Positions 37,125-49,408 of a DNA stretch of 64,000 bases are shown here, in pieces. A program made the position numbers and the translations under genes. The DNA comes from Oceaniferula marina (lineage in GTDB: Bacteria; Verrucomicrobiota; Verrucomicrobiia; Verrucomicrobiales; Akkermansiaceae). The notes under the pieces were generated by a model, which saw nothing but the letters and a program-made list of their open reading frames with translations, searched no databases and was not told the origin of the DNA. Location of the stretch: NCBI RefSeq assembly GCF_013391475.1, contig NZ_JACBAZ010000001.1, positions 516,377 to 580,376 of the forward strand, written 5' to 3'. Every line of letters begins with the position of its first letter. Position 1 is the first letter of the stretch.

Positions 37125-37931
37125 ATGCTACAAGCATTTCAATTCGTATCGATCAGCCTGAGCCTCTGTGCAATCTTTTGCACACCCGAGTCTCAGGCGC
37201 AATATGTACAGATTGACCAGGAGTTTGGCTTAAACCAGCATACAGAACACCAACACCTCGCATTTCTCGCAGCCCGTCGAGACTCGATCCCAGGCCTATT
37301 GAGCCCATTCAACGCACCGCCCAAAGCTAAAGTCCTCGTAGAAGAACCCGAACCGTGGCTCACAACCCCACATCCATGGAGGCGGGGTATCACAGCAACC
37401 GTTTTTTGGGTTGGAGAGCGAGCCAGCGAACGCAACCCTACACCCAACGACTCCAGTGCTTGGGACCCCAACTGGCAGGCCAACTTCGGAGGGGAAGACC
37501 ACCCGGCAAAGCGGAATGGCTACCTTCCAGCTGGGTTCACACCCAAGTTAAACCCCTTTTATATCGCCCTTCCGTATAACGATCTCGCCCCTGATGGCGT
37601 TCATTACCCAGAAGCATCCGAGGTCATCCCATGGTTCTGGAAAACCTACCGTGGTGAATGGACCTCCGTTTGCAAAGGCCGCTGGATTGCCGTCCACTAC
37701 CGAGGGAAAGTTTGCTATGCCCAATGGGAGGACTGCGGCCCATTCAACTCAGACGATTGGCAATACGTGTTCAGAGGGCAACAACCGAAACCCACCCCCA
37801 ATGGCAACGCGGGAATCGAGGTCAGCCCGGCAATCCGCGACTATCTCGGCATCCGTAGCGGCTTCCGAGTATCTTGGAAATTCATCGAAGACCACGAGGT
37901 CCCCAACGGCCCTTGGACACAAAGACACTAA
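37125..37931 (+). CDS. Secreted double-psi beta-barrel-like protein of unknown function
   Basis: A 268-residue protein with a signal peptide ending near SQAQYV. The C-terminal half contains KGRWIAVHYRGKVCYAQWED followed by CGPF and, later, NAGIEVSPAIRDYLGI. The order Asp-Cys-Gly-Pro-Phe then a D-L-S-like segment mimics the RlpA/MltA double-psi barrel (NDRGPF ... DLSRAA). So it may bind or cleave peptidoglycan glycan strands, but this is a motif-level guess. The N-terminal 130 residues match nothing I know. It precedes the X-Z-Y cassettes by 116 bp of G-poor leader and could be part of that cluster. Confidence 0.5.
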   Translation: MLQAFQFVSISLSLCAIFCTPESQAQYVQIDQEFGLNQHTEHQHLAFLAARRDSIPGLLSPFNAPPKAKVLVEEPEPWLTTPHPWRRGITATVFWVGERASERNPTPNDSSAWDPNWQANFGGEDHPAKRNGYLPAGFTPKLNPFYIALPYNDLAPDGVHYPEASEVIPWFWKTYRGEWTSVCKGRWIAVHYRGKVCYAQWEDCGPFNSDDWQYVFRGQQPKPTPNGNAGIEVSPAIRDYLGIRSGFRVSWKFIEDHEVPNGPWTQRH

Positions 37932-38047
37932 ACTCTATACAGCCCACACAACGTATTCTCCAAAAGATCACTCCATTTTTCCAATTTCATTCCATATAAA
38001 CACTCCAATTCACACAAACAATCCAATACCAACAAACAAATAATACC

Positions 38048-38833
38048 ATGAAAACCAAGACAAGCATCAACACACTCGCCCTTCTGGCCATGAGTGTGGC
38101 AACCAGTCAGGCAGACCTGACATTCACAGCGCCCGGCGGAGATTCCGCAACCGGAAGCAGCACATCAGGCACCCTGGCCATCAATGCCGGAGAACACAAT
38201 AAATACCAGATCACAGGCTACACACTCGATGCCGGTCAAACAAATAAAGGTCTGACCGTCTCAGCCTCGGCCAACGGCACCAGTATCTTCAGCAACGCAA
38301 GCCTCGTTAAAAAAGGTGGTGTAACCACCGTAACCTTGGCTAACCCCATCACCATCGAAAACTCAATTACGACCATAACGCTTAGTTATAATGGCGAAGA
38401 AGCTCCCAAATCCGGCGTCGTTGTCGAAATTCTTGCCACCATCACCGATGCATCAGTCGAACCAACCGGAACTTTAGAAGCCCCGCTGCTTGCTGCAGAT
38501 GACGGCCAGGAACTCCCATTTCTCAATTGGACTATCTCCAAACTCATGGATGCCAACGCTGAAACAGCCAACCCAGCCACGGGTTCATCCGGAGAAGACC
38601 AGAGTGAATCAGAAGATGCTGACAACATTGGTAAAGCAAAAAGCAACAATGGTCACGGTAACAACCTCGATGGCATCGATGTCTCCAACCCTGGCAAAAG
38701 CGCCGAAAAATGGGCCTCACAAGGAAAACTCGACACCGATTACAATGGGGATGGCGAATATGAGGACGACGAAGGAAAAGGCGGCGGATCAGCCATGAGC
38801 CAAACTCCTGTCAAGAACACCACATCTTCCTAA
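38048..38833 (+). CDS. Cassette protein X1: secreted beta-sandwich protein with EF-hand-like tail
   Basis: A 261-residue protein of unknown function. Signal peptide of about 22 residues ends at SQADL. The next 140 residues alternate in a beta-sandwich pattern without cysteine. An acidic linker (about 180-200) leads to a tail with NNGHGNNLDGIDVSNPGKS and an EF-hand-like loop starting at Asp229: D-x-D-x-N-x-D-x-E, last ligand Asp240. X2 at 47272 is a clear paralogue, and its tail is nearly identical at DNA level (33 identical bases at 38731-38763). Start is preceded by a G-poor A/C-rich leader without Shine-Dalgarno motif. First gene of cassette 1. Confidence 0.75.
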   Translation: MKTKTSINTLALLAMSVATSQADLTFTAPGGDSATGSSTSGTLAINAGEHNKYQITGYTLDAGQTNKGLTVSASANGTSIFSNASLVKKGGVTTVTLANPITIENSITTITLSYNGEEAPKSGVVVEILATITDASVEPTGTLEAPLLAADDGQELPFLNWTISKLMDANAETANPATGSSGEDQSESEDADNIGKAKSNNGHGNNLDGIDVSNPGKSAEKWASQGKLDTDYNGDGEYEDDEGKGGGSAMSQTPVKNTTSS

Positions 38834-38857
38834 GATTCCATTGCTTTGTCCTCTTCT

Positions 38858-39331
38858 ATGAAGAATATCTATCCAGCACGATTTGGCATCACCGCCCTTC
38901 TGGCAGTCATCACTTTGACCTCTTGCCATTGGGTAAGCGCTCAAACCCAACCGTCAAGCGGCAAACCCAAAGTCGATATCAAACGCCCATCCGTCTACGA
39001 TGGGTGCAAGATCGTCAATAACAACAAAGAACACGCCATCCTTCCGATCGGAAGCATCGTATTCTTGCCAGATCGCGTCAAATCCAGAGTTTCGGATAAA
39101 CCCGAAGGCCGATTTAAACTCTGGCCGGATTTCCTCAAGCGCAACAGAGACTGGATTTGGACTTTCGAAGTTACTCTCGATCAAGCCAAAGGCATTGCAC
39201 CAATCCCACAGGCCAAGCTCGATGAGTTTACCAAACTCAACCGCATGGTCGTAGCCACCAACAATGGCAACCCGGTTGCAATCCTCTCCAAAAAGCAAAA
39301 AAGCAAGGAAGGCAAAGCCGAAAACAAATAA
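38858..39331 (+). CDS. Cassette protein Z1: small secreted, probably lipoprotein
   Basis: 157 residues from ATG at 38858 (a TTG 12 bases upstream is possible). The N-terminal hydrophobic stretch ends in ITLTSCHW, which fits a lipobox with Cys. The conserved core is shared with Z2 at 45135: LPIGSIVFLPDRVKSRV, GRFKLWPDFLKRNRDWIWTF, VTLDQAKG and RMVVATNNGNPVAI. Lys-rich C-terminus. Function unknown. It stands 24 bp after X1 and 31 bp before Y1. Confidence 0.7.
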   Translation: MKNIYPARFGITALLAVITLTSCHWVSAQTQPSSGKPKVDIKRPSVYDGCKIVNNNKEHAILPIGSIVFLPDRVKSRVSDKPEGRFKLWPDFLKRNRDWIWTFEVTLDQAKGIAPIPQAKLDEFTKLNRMVVATNNGNPVAILSKKQKSKEGKAENK

Positions 39332-39362
39332 ATACATCAACAAACCCCAACATCACAAAACC

Positions 39363-40559
39363 ATGAAAACATTCCAAAGTCATCACAGCGCCGCCATTGC
39401 CTGCGCCGCCATGCTCGCCAGTATGAGCCTGGTATCAGCCAGCAATGACAGCTTCATCAAACAATGGCAATTATCAGATGACGGCAGCCGCGTCTGCGTC
39501 AGCACCATCTATTTTGCAGGTCCAAATGACGGCAGCAGCTCCAGTGGCACAAAAACTTCCGAGCAAACCGTTGGCTCAGCGGGTTCGTATTACGAACTCT
39601 GGACCGATGGTATCGGCTCGGATAACAGCACCAACTACCTGCTCGACACGGCCTATGTCGCACCCTATGCCCCGGAATCGACTATCACCTTCAGCTCGGG
39701 CGACCCCTATGCCACAGCGCGAACCCGTGCCGACGAATCCTTCTGGGTCCATGTTGGAGTCAAAGACCTCATGGCACCAGACACCGGAGCCCCTGATTCC
39801 GCACTGAATGTCTACTTCCAACACACCGCCCTCGCCTATGACTCATCTACCAATGGGGCTGCAGCTGGCGCCGAAGAAGCATTCATTCAAGATGCCTACA
39901 TCAATGATAACGGGACCATTCACTTGGAAGGAGCCTCTCAGCTCGCCAACGAGGGAGTGACTGCAGATGACCCCGACGGCATCGCTTACAAGCAACGTGG
40001 AGAGGACATCTTCCGTTCATATGCCTTTGTCCGTGATGGAACCGCTTCCAGCGGCCTCCAGATCGCCGAAGGTAAAATCCAGATTTGGCCCATTGCCGAG
40101 GCGAGCATCTACCTCAAGGATTATGAGCCAGATGCCACACTCACCCGCTCGCTTCCCGACATCGAAGTCTCAGTGACGGACGCATATCCCTACAGCACCA
40201 CCTATGTTTTGATCTACAAAGGGCAAAAGGATTCAAGCGGCCGTGACAGTGCTCAGGTCATTGAGGCCTACCGCCGCAGCTTCCCAAGCACCACAACGGT
40301 ACCTCAGAACCTCAGCATCACTATTCCAGCAACGAACTGGACAGCCTATGTTCCTGATGATGGAACCTACACCCTTGAGGTAGTCACCCATACGCCGTTC
40401 GAAGGCCTCGCTTACCCAAGCACGTCAACGGACACCGATGGAAACAATATCCTGGATACCGACCACCTCCCTACATCCGGAGGACTCCGTCTCGTCCACA
40501 ATACCTTCACCGTTGACCGGACCGTTCAGGTCAAAGGCAACGTTATTTCTTCGGAATAA
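39363..40559 (+). CDS. Cassette protein Y1: secreted protein ending in GNVISSE
   Basis: 398 residues from ATG at 39363 (the frame is open upstream, but the paralogue Y3 starts MKTFQ at the same place). Signal peptide ends at about VSASND. The mature protein is beta-rich with Tyr/Ser/Thr abundance, lacks cysteine apart from one near the N-terminus, and contains AEGKIQIWPIAEASIYLKDY and DIEVSVTDAYPYSTTYVLIY, shared with Y3 and, weakly, Y2. It ends VDRTVQVKGNVISSE. I read it as a structural or cargo protein made of immunoglobulin-like sandwiches. The stop codon lies inside a terminator-like hairpin. Confidence 0.72.
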   Translation: MKTFQSHHSAAIACAAMLASMSLVSASNDSFIKQWQLSDDGSRVCVSTIYFAGPNDGSSSSGTKTSEQTVGSAGSYYELWTDGIGSDNSTNYLLDTAYVAPYAPESTITFSSGDPYATARTRADESFWVHVGVKDLMAPDTGAPDSALNVYFQHTALAYDSSTNGAAAGAEEAFIQDAYINDNGTIHLEGASQLANEGVTADDPDGIAYKQRGEDIFRSYAFVRDGTASSGLQIAEGKIQIWPIAEASIYLKDYEPDATLTRSLPDIEVSVTDAYPYSTTYVLIYKGQKDSSGRDSAQVIEAYRRSFPSTTTVPQNLSITIPATNWTAYVPDDGTYTLEVVTHTPFEGLAYPSTSTDTDGNNILDTDHLPTSGGLRLVHNTFTVDRTVQVKGNVISSE

Positions 40560-40565
40560 CGTTTT
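40541..40565 (+). terminator. Terminator-like hairpin overlapping the Y1 stop codon
   Basis: CGTTATT (40541-40547) and AATAACG (40555-40561) pair perfectly around TCTTCGG, then TTTT. The stem includes the last Y1 codons and its stop, and also the last codon and stop of the convergent gene at 40543. Confidence 0.5.
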
Positions 40566-41106
40566 GATTACGGTAGAGTATGGAAAAGCGGGCCGATTGA
40601 CGTTGGCTGGCCGTATCCTCCACCTCCGTAAACGCAATCAATAACAGGAGCCCGGAAACGGGCTCCACATGATACGACACCGACTTGCGCAATAGCTGTC
40701 CCTCCTTTTTTTGCTGCTTATTGTTCGGCGTAAACTCACCATGCTTCAAGGTTAAGGCTTTTTTCACCTTCTCAAAATCAGCCTTGACCGAAGCAGGTTT
40801 CATTCCTGGCGCACCATAGTGCACAGAAACTTCATACAGCTTACCCCAATGGTAATGAGCTTCCAGAGCATATGCCTGATGACCGGGAAGAGGGCCCCGG
40901 ATCGAAGAAACACGGATTTCCCTGATTTCAGGATGATTCCCGGGCATCTTGATGTTCACATCCAAGCTCTTCGCTTGCGCCCAGTCCAGCACCTTATCCG
41001 GGGTGCCTCCCCATTCTAATCCAAAAGGAGGAGAAAGAATCGCCTGAGCCCGCACCCCACCCCCATGGATGAGAACAAGAGTGAAAACAATCGATACAAT
41101 TCTCAT
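40543..41106 (-). CDS. Secreted protein of unknown function between Y1 and the pseudopilins
   Basis: 187 residues from ATG at 41106, which gives a signal peptide ending at VRAQAIL; the longer frame to 41172 is not supported. Contains FGLEWGGTPDKVLDWAQAKS, HYHWGKLYEVSVHYGAPGM and a basic stretch NNKQQKKEG. I do not recognise a family. It overlaps the 3' end of Y1 by 17 bases in convergent orientation and starts 110 bp from the divergent pseudopilin P1. Confidence 0.6.
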   Translation of the reverse strand: MRIVSIVFTLVLIHGGGVRAQAILSPPFGLEWGGTPDKVLDWAQAKSLDVNIKMPGNHPEIREIRVSSIRGPLPGHQAYALEAHYHWGKLYEVSVHYGAPGMKPASVKADFEKVKKALTLKHGEFTPNNKQQKKEGQLLRKSVSYHVEPVSGLLLLIAFTEVEDTASQRQSARFSILYRNQNVIPKK

Positions 41107-41216
41107 AAAACGTGTTAACCTAATGCACATACGCAGCGAGAAGTAACGAAATACCCGACAAATGACAAGCAAGTTGCTCTACCCAACAGGCTGAAACCAT
41201 CAATTGAAGACCAAAC

Positions 41217-41717
41217 ATGCGCATCCTGAAAAAACAACACCGAGTCCAACACCATGCCGCCGGCAGCATGTTACTCGAAATGACCGTAGCATTGGGGCTA
41301 CTGACGGCCATCAGTTTTTTTCTATTCAAAGGAAGCCTGGACGTCATGAAACCCCGTCAATGGGTGATCAGACAAAACATCACCGACGCCTACCTCAGCT
41401 ACGAGGAGGCCTACGCCAAGCGGGTCAGCTTTGAAGAATTGACAGCCTCGGAATCGAACTGGCCTGTGTATCCCGACACCAGCAGCAGTACGGTCGAGGT
41501 AGGCAAGGCCCCCGGGGGGGATGCCATTAACGGGACGCTCATCCGCACGCGCGTTGCAGGAGAAAACAATATTCCCGACTCAAGTGATAGCGATTACGCC
41601 ACCAAACTAGCACTCAACCCAGCAAAAATGGAAACTTGGAAACTGAAAAGCCATCTTAGCTACACCTTAAACGGTAAAACATACGTAAAATCAAGAACCG
41701 TGGTCCGCACCCGATGA
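41217..41717 (+). CDS. Pseudopilin-like protein P1 (E5-containing)
   Basis: 166 residues. A short basic leader precedes AAG-SMLLEMTVALGLL, with cleavage expected after Gly16 and Glu at position +5 of the mature protein, the hallmark of type IV prepilins and type II pseudopilins; Ser replaces the usual Phe at +1. Helix spans about 17-37. The C-terminal domain is beta-like and carries a seven-G run (41514-41520). Overlaps P2 by ATGA. Probably a minor pseudopilin (GspI/J or PilV/W class). Confidence 0.72.
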   Translation: MRILKKQHRVQHHAAGSMLLEMTVALGLLTAISFFLFKGSLDVMKPRQWVIRQNITDAYLSYEEAYAKRVSFEELTASESNWPVYPDTSSSTVEVGKAPGGDAINGTLIRTRVAGENNIPDSSDSDYATKLALNPAKMETWKLKSHLSYTLNGKTYVKSRTVVRTR

Positions 41718-42274
41718 AGACGCACTCATATCAACACACGGTGAAGCCTGGATTCACGCTCATCGAATTAACCATCGCCATGATCGTCGGCTTGATGATC
41801 ATCATGGTCACTTTGTCGCTGTTCACACAACAAACCCGAGCCTTTGATATTCTTAAAAAGCAAAATTTTATGATCCGCGAGGCTCCTCAAATCAACAACT
41901 TACTCAACAGTATTGTTTCACGAGCCGACGCCATTCAAATGTATCCCACAACAGCCGATGCGATTTCAGGAACCAATGCGGCAACAACCAATGCCACTGT
42001 GCTTGCACTCAAATTTCAGGGCGTCAGCGTGGAGTCTGGAACCACAGCGATATCCGAAAGTTATGGCGTCGTTGCCTACGACACCGCCACACAGGTACTG
42101 AATTACTATGGCAATTTAACGACCTTGGCAGATCTCGATCCCTCCACCCCCTCCTGGGCTGTCTCCACGCAGCTCAAAAATGCAACCTTCTCCGTTGAGA
42201 ACGGGGTCCTAAGAATTCAACTCACAGGCCCCCATGACGGAGTTATCACCTATTCAACCACTCCGCTGCAATGA
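41714..42274 (+). CDS. Pseudopilin-like protein P2 (canonical GFTLIE)
   Basis: 186 residues with a textbook prepilin peptidase site KPG-FTLIELTIAMIVG: cleavage after Gly13, Glu at +5, hydrophobic helix to about residue 35. The rest (about 150 residues) resembles the GspJ/PilW class by the order of helix then QQTRAFDILKKQNFMIR, but is divergent. The four-base overlaps with P1 and P3 mean the three are translated as one unit. Confidence 0.78.
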   Translation: MKTHSYQHTVKPGFTLIELTIAMIVGLMIIMVTLSLFTQQTRAFDILKKQNFMIREAPQINNLLNSIVSRADAIQMYPTTADAISGTNAATTNATVLALKFQGVSVESGTTAISESYGVVAYDTATQVLNYYGNLTTLADLDPSTPSWAVSTQLKNATFSVENGVLRIQLTGPHDGVITYSTTPLQ

Positions 42275-44043
42275 TCACCAACGCGAACTGCCACCATCAA
42301 AAAAACGCACCGGGATTTGCGTCCGTTCTTTCCGTTCTAGCTCTAGGAATGGGCCTACTTACGGTGCTCATCATGATCTACAAGGATACCTTGCAAACCC
42401 AAAGCGATCAAAAAAACCTCCTATTAAGAAACGACTACGAACAGCGTGAAAGTGCCTTTTTAAGTGCTCTGACCAATATCATCCCCAACAAAGCCATGCG
42501 CGGTATGATGGAAGGTGCTGACGCGGAATCTGACCTTGAGTGGGAAAGCATTTTTAATGAAGCCCTCACCCAGGCCAACGCCCATCAGGCAGTCAACTCG
42601 GCAGAAGCCACTGCTCTCGGCTTGAGCAGCATGCGCTCGGCGAACACCGCCAACACCACTCTGGATCCAAGTTCGATCATCCACTCGATTTTTGAAGATG
42701 GAGGCCTGATTAGCTCGGGGACCAACTCCGTTGGAACTTCGACCTACAACTACCCTCCACTGCTAGGATGCGATTCCAGTTTAAAAGCGGATGACGAGTC
42801 GGCCCCCATTATTTCACATTTAAAATCTGACGGGACCGGCAACGCTTACAGCAAAATTCCAGCACCAGCATTGCAGTTCAATTACCAAAACAACAGCACG
42901 TTCATTGCCAAACACAATTGGTGGACGTTCAAAGTTTCATTTGCAGAGCAAGACGCCAGCAAAACCAATCTATCACGAACAAGCAAACAATATCTCATCT
43001 CCCTATATGAAGTTCCAGCCCAGTTGGCGATCAATAGTGCCGCCTACACCAATTTCGGTGCCCATGCAGATGGCACGGAGTGGTCTAACATAACAACATC
43101 CGGCGGAGTTTTCGCGTCCAGTGTAAAAACAAAAGGAGGATTTTCACCGGATGCCATCGCCAGCCGAAAAGGTATCGAAGTCGCCGATAATTCGAACCCA
43201 TTTGCTGTCGATAACGCAGATCACAATAAAAAGCTCTACGGAGGCGCGTCCTCCGTCTACTCCTCCGCATCAGAAGGCGGCCGGGTAGCATTTATCCCCA
43301 TTAACCGCGGCTACGATTTCTACGCCAGAAGCCTGGATGTCGAAAAAACACCAGACACCAATATGCAATCGTCTTCTGCCATTTCCTCCCAATCAACCGC
43401 ATGGGAGTTCTATAGCGCGGGTGCCAACCAATGTGTCATGACCTTTACAGGTGAAACGCTATACTACCTCGAAGATGGCAAGAGCACACTCTCCGCCGTT
43501 GACATGACAGAAACACTCAATGCCTTCACCTATGAGGATTCCGCGGCTGGTGATCAATGCATCAAAGTCAACATGGAAAACCTGATTGCTTTCCTGGGCG
43601 ACAACCTAGCACTCAACCCCTCACTCTGCGTCAATACCGACCGATACGTGCTCCTCGCCAAAGCTGATGACCTTTCAGACTTCGAAAACGGCTTTTCCCT
43701 CGTTGCTAATCAGCGGCTCATTCTGGATGGTGACATCAACATCACCAAACTCGACAGCGCGGACCGCTACCCCCCACTCTCCCTCTACGCCCCCGAAAAA
43801 CGTTTTGGTAACGGAGATGGCAACGCTACGCTTAAAATTGAAATTGAAGGACAAATGGGATCTCTCGCCGATAATACGGATAAATCAAATGCCGTTAATA
43901 TTGGAGACCTCATGGTCAACGGTGAGTCCACTGTCAGAGCGGATGACATCAAAGCAACGCTTAGTTCCGTCACCGAAGTAAACCAACTTCCACCTATCAA
44001 CATGATGAACTGGATGATCGTCATCAGAGAGATTCGACCTTAA
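42271..44043 (+). CDS. Large pseudopilin-like protein P3 (GspK/PilX-like, no Glu at +5)
   Basis: 590 residues. The N-terminus NAPG-FASVLSVLALGMGLLTVL has a prepilin-like leader and helix, but Leu instead of Glu at +5. That is the rule for the tip pseudopilin GspK and for PilX-like proteins, which cap the filament. The long C-terminal part (Ser/Asp/Asn-rich, YLEDGKSTLSAVDM and LRNDYEQRESAF) is unlike any domain I know and unusually large for GspK. It overlaps P2 by four bases and is followed by a 393-bp gap and cassette 2. A relation to the Verru_Chthon cassette proteins, known from Verrucomicrobium and Chthoniobacter, is possible (recollection, not checked). Confidence 0.65.
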   Translation: MITNANCHHQKNAPGFASVLSVLALGMGLLTVLIMIYKDTLQTQSDQKNLLLRNDYEQRESAFLSALTNIIPNKAMRGMMEGADAESDLEWESIFNEALTQANAHQAVNSAEATALGLSSMRSANTANTTLDPSSIIHSIFEDGGLISSGTNSVGTSTYNYPPLLGCDSSLKADDESAPIISHLKSDGTGNAYSKIPAPALQFNYQNNSTFIAKHNWWTFKVSFAEQDASKTNLSRTSKQYLISLYEVPAQLAINSAAYTNFGAHADGTEWSNITTSGGVFASSVKTKGGFSPDAIASRKGIEVADNSNPFAVDNADHNKKLYGGASSVYSSASEGGRVAFIPINRGYDFYARSLDVEKTPDTNMQSSSAISSQSTAWEFYSAGANQCVMTFTGETLYYLEDGKSTLSAVDMTETLNAFTYEDSAAGDQCIKVNMENLIAFLGDNLALNPSLCVNTDRYVLLAKADDLSDFENGFSLVANQRLILDGDINITKLDSADRYPPLSLYAPEKRFGNGDGNATLKIEIEGQMGSLADNTDKSNAVNIGDLMVNGESTVRADDIKATLSSVTEVNQLPPINMMNWMIVIREIRP

Positions 44044-44436
44044 CTCTCTACCTCACCTAACACACAAATCAAACCGCCCTGTTTTTATAAAAAAAAGCAA
44101 CAAATGAAGATCGAAACTAACTTATCTTCAACCGCTTAGGGCTTATTGTTTTTTCTGCTATTTCTGCTAGACAAGCAGCGAGATTTACTTGATTAGATGC
44201 GTATGCAATCGCAGCCCACTCCAATCTAACACAATAGATTGCTATCCCCCCAAGGTAAAGGCCTCCCCAGAGCCCACCTCCAAAGTCTCCCTCAGAGCTA
44301 CTCAAAGCTAAACATTTGTGCATTCGACCTGCCACAAACAGGCCTAATATACAATCTATAGCCTATTGTCTGCATCTTCCGGTGCACACTTAGTCAAACA
44401 AGAGAAACAACATCCATCAATCTAACACATATAGTT
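44044..44436. other. 393-bp gap before cassette 2 without a supported gene
   Basis: A/T-rich with T-runs and several short frames, none with coding character. The segment 44360-44436 is A/C-rich and G-poor and is the leader of W. A minus-strand frame at 44117-44335 has no recognisable sequence. No intrinsic terminator is evident for the pseudopilin unit. Confidence 0.6.
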
Positions 44437-45114
44437 ATGAAACACTCATCCATTATATTATTGGCTATTGCCAGCCTCAGCACCGTAGCGTTGGCCAACC
44501 AATCTCCCACTGGCCAACTAACCGTAGACAAGTCCATGGTCCGAAAAGGAGGTATACCAACCCTAACATGGAACATCTTCCACCCGATCAAACAAATCGA
44601 AGAAGTCGTCGACATTGACGATAATGATGAAATCACAGCAAAAAAGCGCCTACGGGTTCAAGTCTCCGTCATTGGCATCGGCATCACAGACGGACGCAAT
44701 GAATACAAGTCCACATCGTGGCTTCATTTTTCATCATCCGGGTGGAAACATGTATTTGAAGGCTATGGCAGCCAAGTGAACACATCACAAATCAATATCG
44801 ACAGAATTCTCGAACCAGGAGAAAAAATCAAATTCGCGGCCCGGTACTACTGGAACAGCTGGCAACCCTATTACTATAGCAACGGAGACAATGTCAAAGC
44901 CCTCATCAATGGAGATCAACCACCCAGCAAAGCAGGAGGCTATGATCAATCTTCACTTAACGACTACCTCCGCCCATACGTTAAAGACGGAAAACTCAAC
45001 CTTGGAGAACTGGATATTATTTATGCAGCAGAATTAACGCATACAGATCAAAGAGCTTCAGGATTTGATATGCAGGATACGATTATCTTACTTAGATTTA
45101 GCGAAGTGGAATAA
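44437..45114 (+). CDS. Cassette protein W: secreted protein replacing X in cassette 2
   Basis: 225 residues with a signal peptide ending at VALANQS. Contains TLTWNIFHPIKQIEEVVDID, KKRLRVQVSVIGIGITDG, a Tyr/Trp-rich stretch WNSWQPYYYSNGDN and a C-terminal DMQDTIILLRF. One cysteine-free domain, beta-rich. It sits where X stands in cassettes 1 and 3 (immediately before Z or Y) but shows no evident similarity to X. I recall similar proteins in other Verrucomicrobiota genomes; function unknown. Confidence 0.7.
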   Translation: MKHSSIILLAIASLSTVALANQSPTGQLTVDKSMVRKGGIPTLTWNIFHPIKQIEEVVDIDDNDEITAKKRLRVQVSVIGIGITDGRNEYKSTSWLHFSSSGWKHVFEGYGSQVNTSQINIDRILEPGEKIKFAARYYWNSWQPYYYSNGDNVKALINGDQPPSKAGGYDQSSLNDYLRPYVKDGKLNLGELDIIYAAELTHTDQRASGFDMQDTIILLRFSEVE

Positions 45115-45134
45115 GCCCAGACCTTCACACCGCA

Positions 45135-45689
45135 ATGATCAAGTCATCACTGTATGGATTGTGCTACCTCCTGAGTTTATTCGTCTTGTCCTGTACCTTT
45201 GCTGCTGCAGAAACAAACAATCACTCAGCTAACACACCCAAGAAAAGACCTAGTCATGAGGATATCCTTGATAAACAAGCGAAAAGCCCTCGACCAGTTC
45301 CAACAACAAATTCCGCACCTGCCCAAAGCGAAAAAATACATACCCCACAGAAAAATAAACCACTTAGCCGCTCCACCATTTTGTCTCACGCGAACAAGTG
45401 GACTAAAATCCCCCAAGGCAGTATCATGTATACGCCAGATCACTTGAAAAAAAATATCGTGGCAACACCGACTGGAAAAATCCTCAGTTGGAATGATTTC
45501 TACCGGAAAAATGCCGGTTGGATACACCTGCACCCGGTCACGATCAACCAAGCCAGAGGACTCACAGTGATCAAAGCTGATATCATTAAGGCATACCAGT
45601 CTATGGGGAAAGTCGTCGTCGCTACCTACCACAAAGCACCGATTTCAGTCATGCCCAAGGCTTTGGAGCCAGAAACCTTAAAACAATAA
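45135..45689 (+). CDS. Cassette protein Z2: paralogue of Z1
   Basis: 184 residues. Hydrophobic N-terminus ends in LFVLSCTF, a possible lipobox, followed by a Ser/Pro/Lys/Thr-rich linker (about 25-90). The C-terminal core matches Z1: IPQGSIMYTPDHLKKNI, GKILSWNDFYRKNAGWIHLH, VTINQARGLTVI and KVVVATYHKAPISVM. The Gly-Ser-Ile start, Trp-Asn-Asp-Phe centre and Val-Val-Val-Ala-Thr end are all conserved. Function unknown. Twenty bases after W and 25 before Y2. Confidence 0.7.
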   Translation: MIKSSLYGLCYLLSLFVLSCTFAAAETNNHSANTPKKRPSHEDILDKQAKSPRPVPTTNSAPAQSEKIHTPQKNKPLSRSTILSHANKWTKIPQGSIMYTPDHLKKNIVATPTGKILSWNDFYRKNAGWIHLHPVTINQARGLTVIKADIIKAYQSMGKVVVATYHKAPISVMPKALEPETLKQ

Positions 45690-45714
45690 CCAACCATTGA
45701 ATCCCTAACACAGC

Positions 45715-46740
45715 ATGAAAACATGTATCATAACACTCGTCCTAAGCTCAGCCAGTATCATGGCTGATTCCTACCTGAATGAAATCAGGCAAATCAATAC
45801 ATTCAAAACCGATCAAGGAGAAATCATCCAAACCGAATTATCCCTGAGTCATCTCGATAACGCAGGTAGCAAGGCCGCGGCAGAGGGCGTCATGGGACGC
45901 AGTGTCTTTGAATTGATTACAACCAACGGAGAAAGTGGTGAAGAAACCCTTCTGGATACAGTAACGGTCTCAAGTTATCTTGCTGATGCCTCCATCCAAA
46001 TCCAGGGCCCGCAAGCCGATCCTTACAACCTGATACCGTCGAACACCCCCCGAACTCAAGTGGGTCAAGGGTTCACCTTAAATTATACCATCTCAGACCT
46101 TCTTCCATCCGGTGCTGATACACCTGAAGCCGCAAGCAGTCTCTTGTTCGAGCATGCCGTTTATAACTATGCCGAAGGTCAAAGCTCGGTGGCCCAAGGA
46201 GCTCTTCCAAATAAAAAAAACCAAAGCCACCTATCACAAAATGGGACTTTCGAGCACTCCCTTTCAACCAGCCTCTCAGCTGCCGACCTCACCCGGGTTC
46301 GAGGTGAAGAAACATTCACCGTTTATATGAAGCCGGACAACGAAAATCCGGACTACAAAGAAATCGATAGCGCGAAAGTAATTATTTGGCCCATCTCCAA
46401 CGGTAGTATGTCCGGATTAATAGCCGGGAAAACCTATTCCAAGATTCCTTCCGTCACCCTTGACTTGGTTGACCTTTACCCAGGAAGTGACACCTACCTC
46501 GAAATCACGAGCCCCGCTTTGGACGCTCCTCTGATCTACGGTGGCCGAAAAAACACCAGCGACGTCCCTTTGACTGTCAAATATGAACTCAAAGACTTGG
46601 ATTTAGTACTAAAAAAAGATGGCGTTTACCGCATTCAACTACTTCACAAAAGCCCGTTCGAGACCTTGGTCTTTGAAGACCTTTCTTTTGAAGTTAGCCG
46701 CGTGATCAAAGTCAACGGCAACATCATTTCTTCAGAATAA
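45715..46740 (+). CDS. Cassette protein Y2: divergent Y paralogue
   Basis: 341 residues with a short signal peptide ending at about IMADSY. Weak but collinear with Y1 and Y3: DSAKVIIWPISNGSM matches the AEGKIQIWPIAEASI segment, SVTLDLVDLYPGSDTYLEI matches DIEVSVTDAYPYSTTYV, and LLHKSPFETLVFED matches THTPFEGL. Ends in SRVIKVNGNIISSE. It lacks most of the N-terminal 80 residues shared by Y1 and Y3. Followed by a strong terminator. Confidence 0.7.
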   Translation: MKTCIITLVLSSASIMADSYLNEIRQINTFKTDQGEIIQTELSLSHLDNAGSKAAAEGVMGRSVFELITTNGESGEETLLDTVTVSSYLADASIQIQGPQADPYNLIPSNTPRTQVGQGFTLNYTISDLLPSGADTPEAASSLLFEHAVYNYAEGQSSVAQGALPNKKNQSHLSQNGTFEHSLSTSLSAADLTRVRGEETFTVYMKPDNENPDYKEIDSAKVIIWPISNGSMSGLIAGKTYSKIPSVTLDLVDLYPGSDTYLEITSPALDAPLIYGGRKNTSDVPLTVKYELKDLDLVLKKDGVYRIQLLHKSPFETLVFEDLSFEVSRVIKVNGNIISSE

Positions 46741-46771
46741 ATCATCTCCGCCTGCTCATTCTTTCGTTTTC

Positions 46772-46808
46772 ACGGCCCTAAAGCTTCATGCTTTAGGGCC
46801 GTTTTTTA
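46772..46808 (+). terminator. Intrinsic terminator after cassette 2
   Basis: Perfect thirteen-base arms ACGGCCCTAAAGC (46772-46784) and GCTTTAGGGCCGT (46790-46802) with a five-base loop, followed by TTTTT. It lies 32 bp after Y2. Confidence 0.92.
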
Positions 46809-47271
46809 TATTTCTACTCCCCGCAGCCCAGTCAGCCTTGCTATTAAAGTTATAATTTTTGCAATCTCGCCCCTAACAGCCCCAATAAATAAACTTTTAC
46901 ATAACCAGCTCAATATGAACGACTAACGCTATTTTTATCTGGACACTTCGCCCATCATACAGCATAAATATAGCAGTTGAGGGCCACACGGCCATCAGCA
47001 TCCCCATCAGAAACACCCCCTCATCTTCCTGTTTCTATCACCTCTCCCCCAAGCGCCCTCCCTTCTCCTGATCATTCAGGAACCATCACATTTGTCTTCC
47101 CTCCAGGGCATCAATCAACGCGCGCTTCAGGCTGGTTTCCGGACCGTCCCTCCAACGGGATTCCGTGTACACCCAACGAGCTCAACAAAAGGGGTCAAGT
47201 AGCCAAACCAACCCGACCTTGAACATAACTAGACATTGATAGACATACACAAAACGAAAACCCATACCATA
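46809..47271. other. 463-bp gap before cassette 3 without a supported gene
   Basis: The middle (about 46980-47210) is C-rich and holds a Pro/Ser-rich frame without recognisable sequence. The last 50 bases form the A/C-rich leader of X2. A promoter for cassette 3 is expected here, but I cannot place one with confidence. Confidence 0.5.
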
Positions 47272-48054
47272 ATGAAGACAACAACCATACTCACCATCGG
47301 CACTGCCATACTGATCAGCACAGCCATCAGCCAGGCAGATATTACACTCAAAGCACCTGGAGCGACATCTGCAATAGGAACCAGCACTCCAGGAAGTCTC
47401 ACATTGGACGCAGGAAACCACAAAAAATATGAAATCACCGGATATGCAGTCGATGCAGGTCAGACCAATCAAGGCCTGAGCGTCTCAGCCTCAGTCAACG
47501 GAACCCGGATTTTCAGTGGCATTTCGTTGGTAAAAAAGGGAGGCGTTTCCGTGGTCACCCTCGACACACCCATTGTCATCAAAGATGCCAATGCCATCAT
47601 CTCTCTGAGCTATGACGGGAGCGAAGATCCCAAATCAGGTGTAAGTGTTGAAATTCTAGCTACCATCACCGATGCCACGGTCGAACCGGTCGGCACCCTG
47701 AAGGCTCCACTTGTTGTCAAAAATGACGGTCTTGAACTCCCCCTCCTAAACTGGAGCATTTCCAAATTTCTCGATAATGAAGCGGTGACACCTCCATCGA
47801 CCGGAGGAGGAAATGAAGACGAGTCCTCATCCGAAGACGCAGCCAATGTCGGCAAAGGGAAAAGCAACAACGGTCACGGAAACAACCTCGACGGCATCGA
47901 TGTCTCCAACCCCGGAAAAAGTGCTGAAAAATGGGCCTCATACGGAAAATTCGACACCGATTACAATGGGGATGGCGAATATGAAGACGATGAAGGACGT
48001 GGTGGCGGATCCGCTATGAGTAACACCCCGGTCAAAAATACGGTCAGCCAGTAA
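47272..48054 (+). CDS. Cassette protein X2: paralogue of X1
   Basis: 260 residues from ATG at 47272 (the frame runs upstream to 47236). Signal peptide ends at ISQADI. Same order as X1: sandwich region containing GYAVDAGQTNQGLSVSASV and SLVKKGGVSVVTL, acidic linker (EDESSSED), then NNGHGNNLDGIDVSNPGKS and an EF-hand-like loop from Asp228. The tail is nearly identical to X1 in DNA, more than the body, suggesting gene conversion or strong selection. Cassette 3 lacks a Z gene; Y3 follows directly (87 bp). Confidence 0.75.
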   Translation: MKTTTILTIGTAILISTAISQADITLKAPGATSAIGTSTPGSLTLDAGNHKKYEITGYAVDAGQTNQGLSVSASVNGTRIFSGISLVKKGGVSVVTLDTPIVIKDANAIISLSYDGSEDPKSGVSVEILATITDATVEPVGTLKAPLVVKNDGLELPLLNWSISKFLDNEAVTPPSTGGGNEDESSSEDAANVGKGKSNNGHGNNLDGIDVSNPGKSAEKWASYGKFDTDYNGDGEYEDDEGRGGGSAMSNTPVKNTVSQ

Positions 48055-48141
48055 AAGAACTTCTTCCACCGTAATCGCGGGTCACCCAGACAAGCATCAC
48101 ATCAAAAAAGGATTCTGAATCATTCAAACATCATACTCACC

Positions 48142-49332
48142 ATGAAAACATTCCAACGTATTCTGCCCGTTTCCCATATCGGGATCATCGCGGCAGCCAT
48201 CAACCTAGCCTGCCTCCCCCCCACAACGGCAAACGACAGCTTCATCAAACAGTGGCAATTAACAGAAGATGGCACACGCATCTGCATTAGCACCATCTAC
48301 TTTGCGGGGCCCGCGGACGGACAATCATCCACAGGAACCAAAACATCCGAACACACAGTGGGATCCGCAGGTTCCTACTATGAGCTCTGGACCGACGGAA
48401 TTGGATCGGACAGTGGAACGGACTACCTACTCGATACCGCTTATGTCGCCCCTTACGCCCCTGAATCTAAAATCACCTTCAGTACAGGCGACCCCTATGC
48501 CTCGGCGCGCACCCGTGCCGATGAACCCTTCTGGATACATGTCGGAGTGAAAGACTTGATGGAGCCAGACACTGGAGCCCCCGACTACGCCCTGAACGTG
48601 TATTTCCAACATACAACGATGACATACGATTCATCGACCAACGGAGTTCCAGCCGGCCAGACAGATGAATCCTTTATTCAGGATGCCTATATATCAGAAA
48701 ATGGGACCATCCACCTTGAAGGAGGGTCCCAACTTCCCAAAGAAGGAGTCTCACAAGAGGCTCCCGAGGGCATCGCCTACAAACAACGCGGCCAAGATAT
48801 ATTCCGAACCTATGCCTTTGCTTCGGATGGAACCGCCAGCGGGCTTCAAATTGCCGAAGGAAAAATCCAGATCTGGCCCATCGCAGAGGCCACCATCTAT
48901 CTGAAAGATTACGAACCCGATGCCACCCTGACGCGCTCGCTTCCCGACATCGAGGTGACGGTCAAAGATGCCTACCCTTACAGCTCCACCTACGTGCAGA
49001 TCTACCCCGGCATCAAAGACTCAGCAGGAAGGGAAAGCGCTCAAGTCATCGAGGCCTATCGTCGATCTTTCCCTAGCACGACAACCGTGCCGCAAAATCT
49101 ACAAATCACCATTCCTGCAGCCAACTGGAAGGATCTGGTCCCCACAGACGGAATCTACACCATCGAAGTGATTACCCATACCCCATTCGAAGGTCTTGTC
49201 TACCCTACAACGGGCAAGGTCATGCTCGATGCTACGGAACTCCCCAGCACCGGAGGCCTCAGATTAGTCCATAACACATTCACTGTAGACCGGACGGTTG
49301 AGATCAAAGGCAACATCATCTCATCTGAATAA
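48142..49332 (+). CDS. Cassette protein Y3: close paralogue of Y1
   Basis: 396 residues, collinear with Y1 over the whole length: NDSFIKQWQLTEDGTRICIS, SYYELWTDGIGSD, LDTAYVAPYAPES, ALNVYFQHT and the tail VDRTVEIKGNIISSE. Divergence is spread over surface-like positions, and the two differ by a few short insertions. Y1 and Y3 are the recent pair and Y2 the old branch. Signal peptide about 29 residues. Ends 31 bp before a strong terminator. Confidence 0.73.
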   Translation: MKTFQRILPVSHIGIIAAAINLACLPPTTANDSFIKQWQLTEDGTRICISTIYFAGPADGQSSTGTKTSEHTVGSAGSYYELWTDGIGSDSGTDYLLDTAYVAPYAPESKITFSTGDPYASARTRADEPFWIHVGVKDLMEPDTGAPDYALNVYFQHTTMTYDSSTNGVPAGQTDESFIQDAYISENGTIHLEGGSQLPKEGVSQEAPEGIAYKQRGQDIFRTYAFASDGTASGLQIAEGKIQIWPIAEATIYLKDYEPDATLTRSLPDIEVTVKDAYPYSSTYVQIYPGIKDSAGRESAQVIEAYRRSFPSTTTVPQNLQITIPAANWKDLVPTDGIYTIEVITHTPFEGLVYPTTGKVMLDATELPSTGGLRLVHNTFTVDRTVEIKGNIISSE

Positions 49333-49362
49333 ACAAACTCTCCCGCCCCAAACACCCTTACC

Positions 49363-49408
49363 AACGGCCCCGGCTCCTCTCAGGAGTCCGGGGCCGTTGC
49401 TTTGTTTG
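49363..49408 (+). terminator. Intrinsic terminator after cassette 3
   Basis: Perfect eleven-base arms AACGGCCCCGG (49363-49373) and CCGGGGCCGTT (49388-49398), inner CTCC/GGAG extension, then a T-rich stretch. Confidence 0.88.

Follow-up and report, generated by a model that had tools for sequence, protein, structure and literature searches.

A verrucomicrobial operon of minor pilins and exported proteins as a candidate pilus tip with an exchangeable head

Within a 64,000-nucleotide stretch of the Oceaniferula marina genome (contig NZ_JACBAZ010000001.1, forward-strand positions 516,377 to 580,376; hereafter the window), positions 37,125 to 49,408 hold a locus in which three minor pilin-like genes, P1, P2 and P3, stand among cassettes of genes for small exported proteins, X or W, Z and Y. 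The open reading frames (ORFs) run in the order D-X1-Z1-Y1-R-P1-P2-P3-W-Z2-Y2-X2-Y3, all on the plus strand except R. A first-pass annotation of these letters had described three cassettes around a pseudopilin operon, and an ORF check recovered every gene it had named, in that order and on the plus strand; it had omitted two conserved neighbours, D and R. We propose that the locus probably encodes the P1-P2-P3 tip of a divergent pilus that carries an exported X/W-Z-Y receptor or adhesin module. The features of the locus, in window coordinates and with the evidence for each, are as follows (HMM, hidden Markov model; Ig/FnIII, immunoglobulin/fibronectin type III).

37125..37931, plus strand: D, conserved exported protein (ORF; no Pfam, NCBIfam or PHROGs match)
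38048..38833, plus strand: X1, with an N-terminal hydrophobic signal-like stretch and the C-terminal tail NNGHGNNLDGIDVSNPG (ORF; family HMM; tail search)
38846..39331, plus strand: Z1, small basic protein with a signal-like N-terminus, pI 10.0 (ORF; HMM)
39363..40559, plus strand: Y1, three predicted tandem Ig/FnIII-like domains (AlphaFold2 model; fold search)
40543..41172, minus strand: R, conserved gene between Y1 and P1 with a signal-like N-terminus (ORF; position kept in many loci)
41217..41717, plus strand: P1, minor pilin-like, with a G-SMLLE prepilin-like N-terminus (sequence; P1 HMM)
41714..42274, plus strand: P2, pseudopilin or minor pilin, GFTLIE (TIGR02532 match)
42271..44043, plus strand: P3, 590 aa, putative tip pilin without E5, long N-terminal helix and beta-solenoid, ComZ-like (predicted model; VIA-align)
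44437..45114, plus strand: W, member of the X/W superfamily and first gene of cassette 2 (ORF; HMM)
45135..45689, plus strand: Z2 (ORF; HMM)
45715..46740, plus strand: Y2, grouping with Y from W-Z-Y cassettes in congeners (ORF; HMM; tree)
46772..46802, plus strand: 13-pair hairpin followed by a T-run, likely terminator of cassette 2 (strongest of such sites)
47272..48054, plus strand: X2, with a C-terminal tail as in X1 (ORF; HMM; tail search)
48142..49332, plus strand: Y3, paralogue of Y1 (ORF; tree; 78% aa identity)
49364..49397, plus strand: GC-rich inverted repeat 3' of Y3, possible terminator of cassette 3 (read from sequence)

X/W-Z-Y-P1-P2-P3 is the typical operon order across Verrucomicrobiales; D commonly heads it, and R commonly lies in the opposite orientation between Y and P1. 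Its recurrence in dozens of other genomes places the arrangement beyond chance. In 289 genomes sampled evenly across the phylum, Y, P3 and u589, a subunit of the machine described below, were each found in 13, and these were the same 13 genomes. Among 58 relatives, Y was present in 32 and P3 in 33, with both in 30, Y only in 2, P3 only in 3 and neither in 23 (Fisher P = 7e-11, not corrected for phylogeny); outside the genus of O. marina, Y was present in 20, P3 in 19 and both in 18 (Fisher P = 3e-9, likewise uncorrected). A P3 profile scan of ~85,000 species' genomes gave 141 relatives, with 79 loci listed, and all 79 loci among the matches listed bear Verrucomicrobiota names. P1 and P2 lay directly upstream of 74 of the 81 testable P3 genes at these 79 named loci, and Y was present in 47 of the 51 P3 loci with at least 7 kb of upstream sequence. 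The commonest layout has X/W-Z-Y ahead of P1 or P3 in the same orientation, as for 40 of the 56 Y genes that had 2.5 kb or more of upstream sequence; Roseibacillus-type loci have a divergent cassette in the order W-Y-Z. The link of X, Z and Y to pseudopilins that had been suggested from the O. marina sequence is therefore real and order-wide. Four loci (L092, L097, L103, L114) have a second W-Z-Y that is followed by another P3, this time lacking P1 and P2, as though cassette and tip pilin were duplicated together, and two others (L057, L058) have tandem P1-P2-P3 sets after a single W-Z-Y.

The three pilin-like genes are joined by ATGA overlaps at P1/P2 and P2/P3, the usual sign of translational coupling. 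P2 passes the TIGR02532 model (19.9 bits, cut-off 16.3), indicating a class III (prepilin) signal; its PF07963 score of 18.8 lies under the cut-off of that model. P1 reads G-SMLLEM at its N-terminus and P3 reads G-FASVLSVLAL, the latter without E5. The first-pass annotation had pointed to tip complexes formed by pseudopilins with an E5-less GspK-like member, and P3 is consistent with this: it lacks E5, and its predicted structure resembles ComZ, a published tip pilin with a GspK-like pilin domain. The P3 model (predicted local distance difference test score, pLDDT, 84; predicted template modelling score, pTM, 0.84) has a 65-residue N-terminal helix (residues 15-79), a beta-rich solenoid body and a last strand at residues 579-588. 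Its best VIA-align match was 6qvi, ComZ of Thermus thermophilus (Z 9.0, 257 residues, rmsd 4.5 A), with residues 196-583 of P3 aligned to 39-512 of ComZ, so that in the predicted model the solenoid sits within a pilin domain as it does in ComZ. The next structural matches were ice-binding beta-solenoids (Z 6.2 to 6.8). ComZ is described as a GspK-like pilin in which an inserted beta-solenoid precedes the last strand; it has been proposed to be a tip-located DNA receptor, and the closest relative named for its solenoid is an ice-binding protein (PMC6561018). Because the P3 model recovers this same pair of matches, ComZ and ice-binding proteins, and has a prepilin-like N-terminus, the likeliest reading of P3 is a ComZ-type tip pilin. 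A coatomer match to P3 (E 0.48) was treated as chance.

Large E5-less, GspK-like proteins alongside several prepilin-like proteins also occur in the Verru_Chthon cassette (TIGR02596, TIGR02598, TIGR02599, TIGR02600), a pilin-rich gene set of the same phylum, and we considered whether the present operon is a divergent form of it. Profile comparison of P3 with Verru_Chthon A aligned the N-terminal helix region only (probability 63%), P3 and its longer homologues have no TIGR02600 match, and 12 separate Verru_Chthon A-like loci coexist with the operon in the O. marina genome. X, Z and Y are not known to belong to the Verru_Chthon cassette. A common identity is thus highly improbable, and we treat the cassette as a different system. 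In the 12 O. marina loci (L136-L143 and others) the TIGR02600 match falls in the N-terminal 60 residues only, within ORFs of 1147-1351 aa.

We next describe the proteins that accompany the pilins. The paralogy proposed for X, Z and Y was borne out, with amino acid identities of 68% for X1/X2, 78% for Y1/Y3, 31% for Y1/Y2 and 31% for Z1/Z2, and iterated HMMs also recovered membership of the Z and Y families. W had been taken for a separate kind of protein. It occupies the slot of X elsewhere, the X and W HMMs match each other's proteins (X1 against the W model, 1.5e-5; W against the X model, 2.4e-4), and a single homologue has strong scores on the two models (2.9e-87 and 7.5e-50); W fills the X slot and is distantly related to X. 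Searches of X, W, Z and Y against Pfam, NCBIfam, PHROGs and PDB sequences returned nothing significant, and no match of Y to a well-characterised family; at the level of curated profiles the proteins of the operon match no family beyond the generic prepilin signal of P2. Y1 gave no match to the Pfam PilC/PilY1 family at E up to 1. Two candidate matches were rejected: Y1 as a WD40-type protein (Pfam E 7e-4, 19.8 bits against a cut-off of 154), where the model shows Ig-like sandwiches instead, and Z as a uracil-DNA glycosylase inhibitor (E 0.16), treated as chance. The AlphaFold2 model of Y1 (pLDDT 86) consists of three tandem immunoglobulin/fibronectin-like sandwiches, which matched many Ig/FnIII proteins (Z 6.6 to 8.3), the adhesins SiiE and BspA (Z 7 to 8) ranking high among them. 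These matches are generic and single out no one family, so we claim no homology, and the match lists do not exclude families absent from them.

X1 and X2 share a C-terminal tail, NNGHGNNLDGIDVSNPG (NNGHGNNxDGxDVSNPG), followed by an acidic stretch (window positions 38639-38800 and 47860-48030). In a search of 58 genomes the tail was found within O. marina only on X1 and X2, and in other relatives most matches lay close to a Y gene or within a Y open frame. At named loci it is carried by W in nine cases, X in six, Y in three and P3 once. That X/W, Y and P3 can all bear the same tail suggests that these proteins work together, and the tail is a possible system-specific sorting or assembly tag. 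It had no match in plasmids, and no relevant paper was found in the literature searched.

A dedicated pseudopilus had been proposed first, and a dedicated machine exists in the same genome. In many relatives the operon adjoins a cluster that reads ABC ATPase-membrane protein (permease)-u330-PilT-like-pilin-u589-u181-u204-secretin-u193-PilB/GspE-GspF, and in O. marina the corresponding genes are found at C1:1141-1157k, on the operon's own contig and some 575 kb away from it. The trio that marks the type IV filament superfamily, an assembly ATPase, a GspF/PilC platform protein and a secretin, is thus present in one cluster. The best NCBIfam scores were 304 bits for PilB, 124.5 for GspF, 133 for PilQ and 247 for the PilT family (TIGR01420, cut-off 319.1), each below its curated cut-off; the T2SSE and secretin matches pass their Pfam cut-offs. 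On PilQ and PilB models the secretin and the assembly ATPase have slightly better scores than on GspD and GspE models. By place and size, u589, u181 and u204 may correspond to PilM/N, PilO and PilP. The ABC ATPase and membrane protein, with u330, are conserved at the head of the cluster (L134, 14883-16470); such an ABC module is, as far as is known, unusual for type IV pili.

Copies of the cassette also occur apart from the pilins. Of 19 Y genes retrieved from outside P3 loci in genomes of the family, 14 are accompanied by Z and X/W, two by Z alone and one by X/W alone, and two have neither. X/W-Z-Y thus behaves as an exchangeable three-gene unit, in line with the exchangeable subunits that the first-pass annotation had envisaged. 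The pilin neighbourhood expected of X, Z and Y fails for some paralogues, but every Y-bearing genome of the 289-genome sample has P3. Two genomes (G032, G033) have Y without a detected P3, in one case beside machine genes and in the other on a 4.7-kb contig, and some genomes have six Y matches. Within the window, cassette 3 lacks Z, none being found in the 87-base gap between X2 and Y3. A quick tree placed Y1 and Y3 as sisters (support 100) to the exclusion of all sampled homologues, and Y2 with Y of the W-Z-Y cassettes that lie downstream of P3 in congeners. By this grouping cassette 2 seems to be the ancestral one in the genus, and cassettes 1 and 3 derive from a single duplication. Cassette 3 had been thought a recent duplicate of cassette 1, which the divergence does not support: dS is saturated, at 1.8 for X1/X2 and 2.4 for Y1/Y3, and dN is 0.25 and 0.16, respectively, with purifying selection on both pairs. 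The duplication is therefore old, and both copies have been maintained by purifying selection.

Such stand-alone cassettes bear on a second explanation, in which the machine is a piston resembling the type II secretion system (T2SS), X/W, Z and Y are released cargo, and the scattered cassettes are further cargo sets. Most X/W, Z and Y proteins have an N-terminal hydrophobic stretch of signal-peptide type and no pilin helices, stand-alone cassettes lie away from the machine, as T2SS cargo genes usually do, P3 is of the GspK/ComZ class, and a secretin and GspF are present. The machine nevertheless includes a PilT-like ATPase, a type typical of retractile pili rather than of T2SS, its secretin and assembly ATPase score best on PilQ and PilB models, and one copy of X-Z-Y almost invariably belongs to the minor pilin operon. 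Nor was an enzyme domain found in X, Y or Z (Pfam, NCBIfam, PHROGs). We regard secretion as possible, if doubtful.

D and R also belong to this neighbourhood. D, possibly a double-psi beta-barrel, had a homologue in 42 of 80 neighbourhoods by clustering, often as the first gene ahead of a cassette or near P1. R is a conserved exported protein, and in relatives it overlaps the region upstream of P1. ATG 38858 is a possible alternative to the TTG start of Z1 at 38846. Promoter and terminator counts in the region were not above those of shuffled sequence.

For the tip with its exported head, we propose the following mechanism. P1, P2 and P3 would act as minor pilins that start the filament, with P3 at the tip, its GspK-like pilin domain bearing a large beta-solenoid like that of Thermus ComZ. 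After Sec-dependent export, X/W, Z and Y would form a complex of three proteins that docks on P3 or close to it and could serve as the filament's receptor or adhesin. Extension of the filament would be driven by the PilB-like ATPase, GspF/PilC and secretin, whose genes lie elsewhere in the genome, and retraction probably by the PilT-like ATPase. Additional X/W-Z-Y cassettes, whether next to the operon or dispersed in the genome, may supply alternative tip complexes.

Several observations weigh against this reading. A P3 profile searched against PDB sequences did not recover 6qvi (ComZ) even with E values as high as 10, the PDB hits that Foldseek by itself ranked for P3 were not significant, and the match to ComZ comes from a second-look aligner and a predicted model. 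Predicted structures cover Y and P3 only. The PilT-like, PilB-like and PilQ-like matches lie under NCBIfam curated cut-offs, which marks the machine as divergent. Stand-alone X/W-Z-Y loci away from pilins, and the lack of pilin helices in X, Z and Y, fit secreted cargo as well. Finally, residues 196-590 of P3 are acidic (net charge -17), so a DNA-receptor role is not implied.

This last point concerns a third explanation, that the locus belongs to a competence pilus in which a ComZ-like P3 binds DNA and X-Z-Y contributes accessory receptor parts. The P3 model matches ComZ, a DNA-binding tip pilin (PMC6561018), and the O. marina genome has both the PilT-like ATPase and a ComEC-family gene. ComEC, however, occurs almost throughout the order, in 54 of 58 genomes, and its presence does not follow that of the machine; it is therefore uninformative as a marker, leaving DNA uptake unsupported beyond the P3 fold. 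The acidity of P3 counts against this reading without deciding whether P3 binds DNA, and the existence of several diverged X-Z-Y cassettes points to a range of ligands rather than to DNA. We consider DNA uptake unlikely.

We compared the candidate pilus tip with known systems. The T. thermophilus ComZ / pilA1-pilA4 competence locus (PMC6561018) likewise encodes a large GspK-like tip pilin with an inserted beta-solenoid beside other minor pilins; it differs in that P3 has no sequence match to ComZ and is acidic, and in that Verrucomicrobiales have, in addition, Sec-exported X/W, Z and Y in the operon and a separate machine that includes an ABC module. GspI-GspJ-GspK of T2SS are also three co-encoded prepilin-type proteins that form a tip complex, the large one without E5, whereas the present machine scores closer to PilB/PilQ than to GspE/GspD and includes a PilT-like ATPase, and P3 carries a solenoid rather than the helical insertion of GspK. 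Type IVa minor pilins with the PilY1 tip adhesin resemble the operon in combining minor pilins with a large exported non-pilin protein. Y, in contrast, has no PilY1/PilC match, there are three small exported proteins rather than one, and cassette copies occur elsewhere. The Verru_Chthon cassette is likewise a verrucomicrobial prepilin-like set with a large E5-less member, from which P3, lacking a family-level match, is set apart along with the separate loci of that cassette in the same genome. The Akkermansia Amuc_1098-type pilus (NF042912) is a type IV pilus of the same phylum, but the machine secretin scores 64 bits on its model against a cut-off of 750.

We found no paper describing the X/W-Z-Y-P1-P2-P3 gene set in the literature searched. 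The class of machine and the type of tip pilin are of known kinds; no description of their combination with X/W-Z-Y, of its conservation across the order or of the way the cassettes behave was found there. More tentatively, Verrucomicrobiales may have a separate class of retractile pilus of their own, with an ABC module in its machine and a swappable three-protein receptor tip, in which up to six diverged cassettes provide different binding heads on the same filament, for example for different polysaccharides.

If a pilus tip with an exported head is correct, a whole order of environmentally important bacteria, with carriers in Luteolibacter, Roseibacillus, Haloferula, Persicirhabdus, Verrucomicrobium, Prosthecobacter and relatives, would have a pilus not described so far, with a solenoid at its tip and exported heads that can be interchanged. 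Poorly annotated genes would gain a testable function in attachment, secretion or uptake, and the ComZ-type tip pilin would extend beyond Thermus. The spread of stand-alone cassettes would then represent a natural experiment in pilus-tip swapping.

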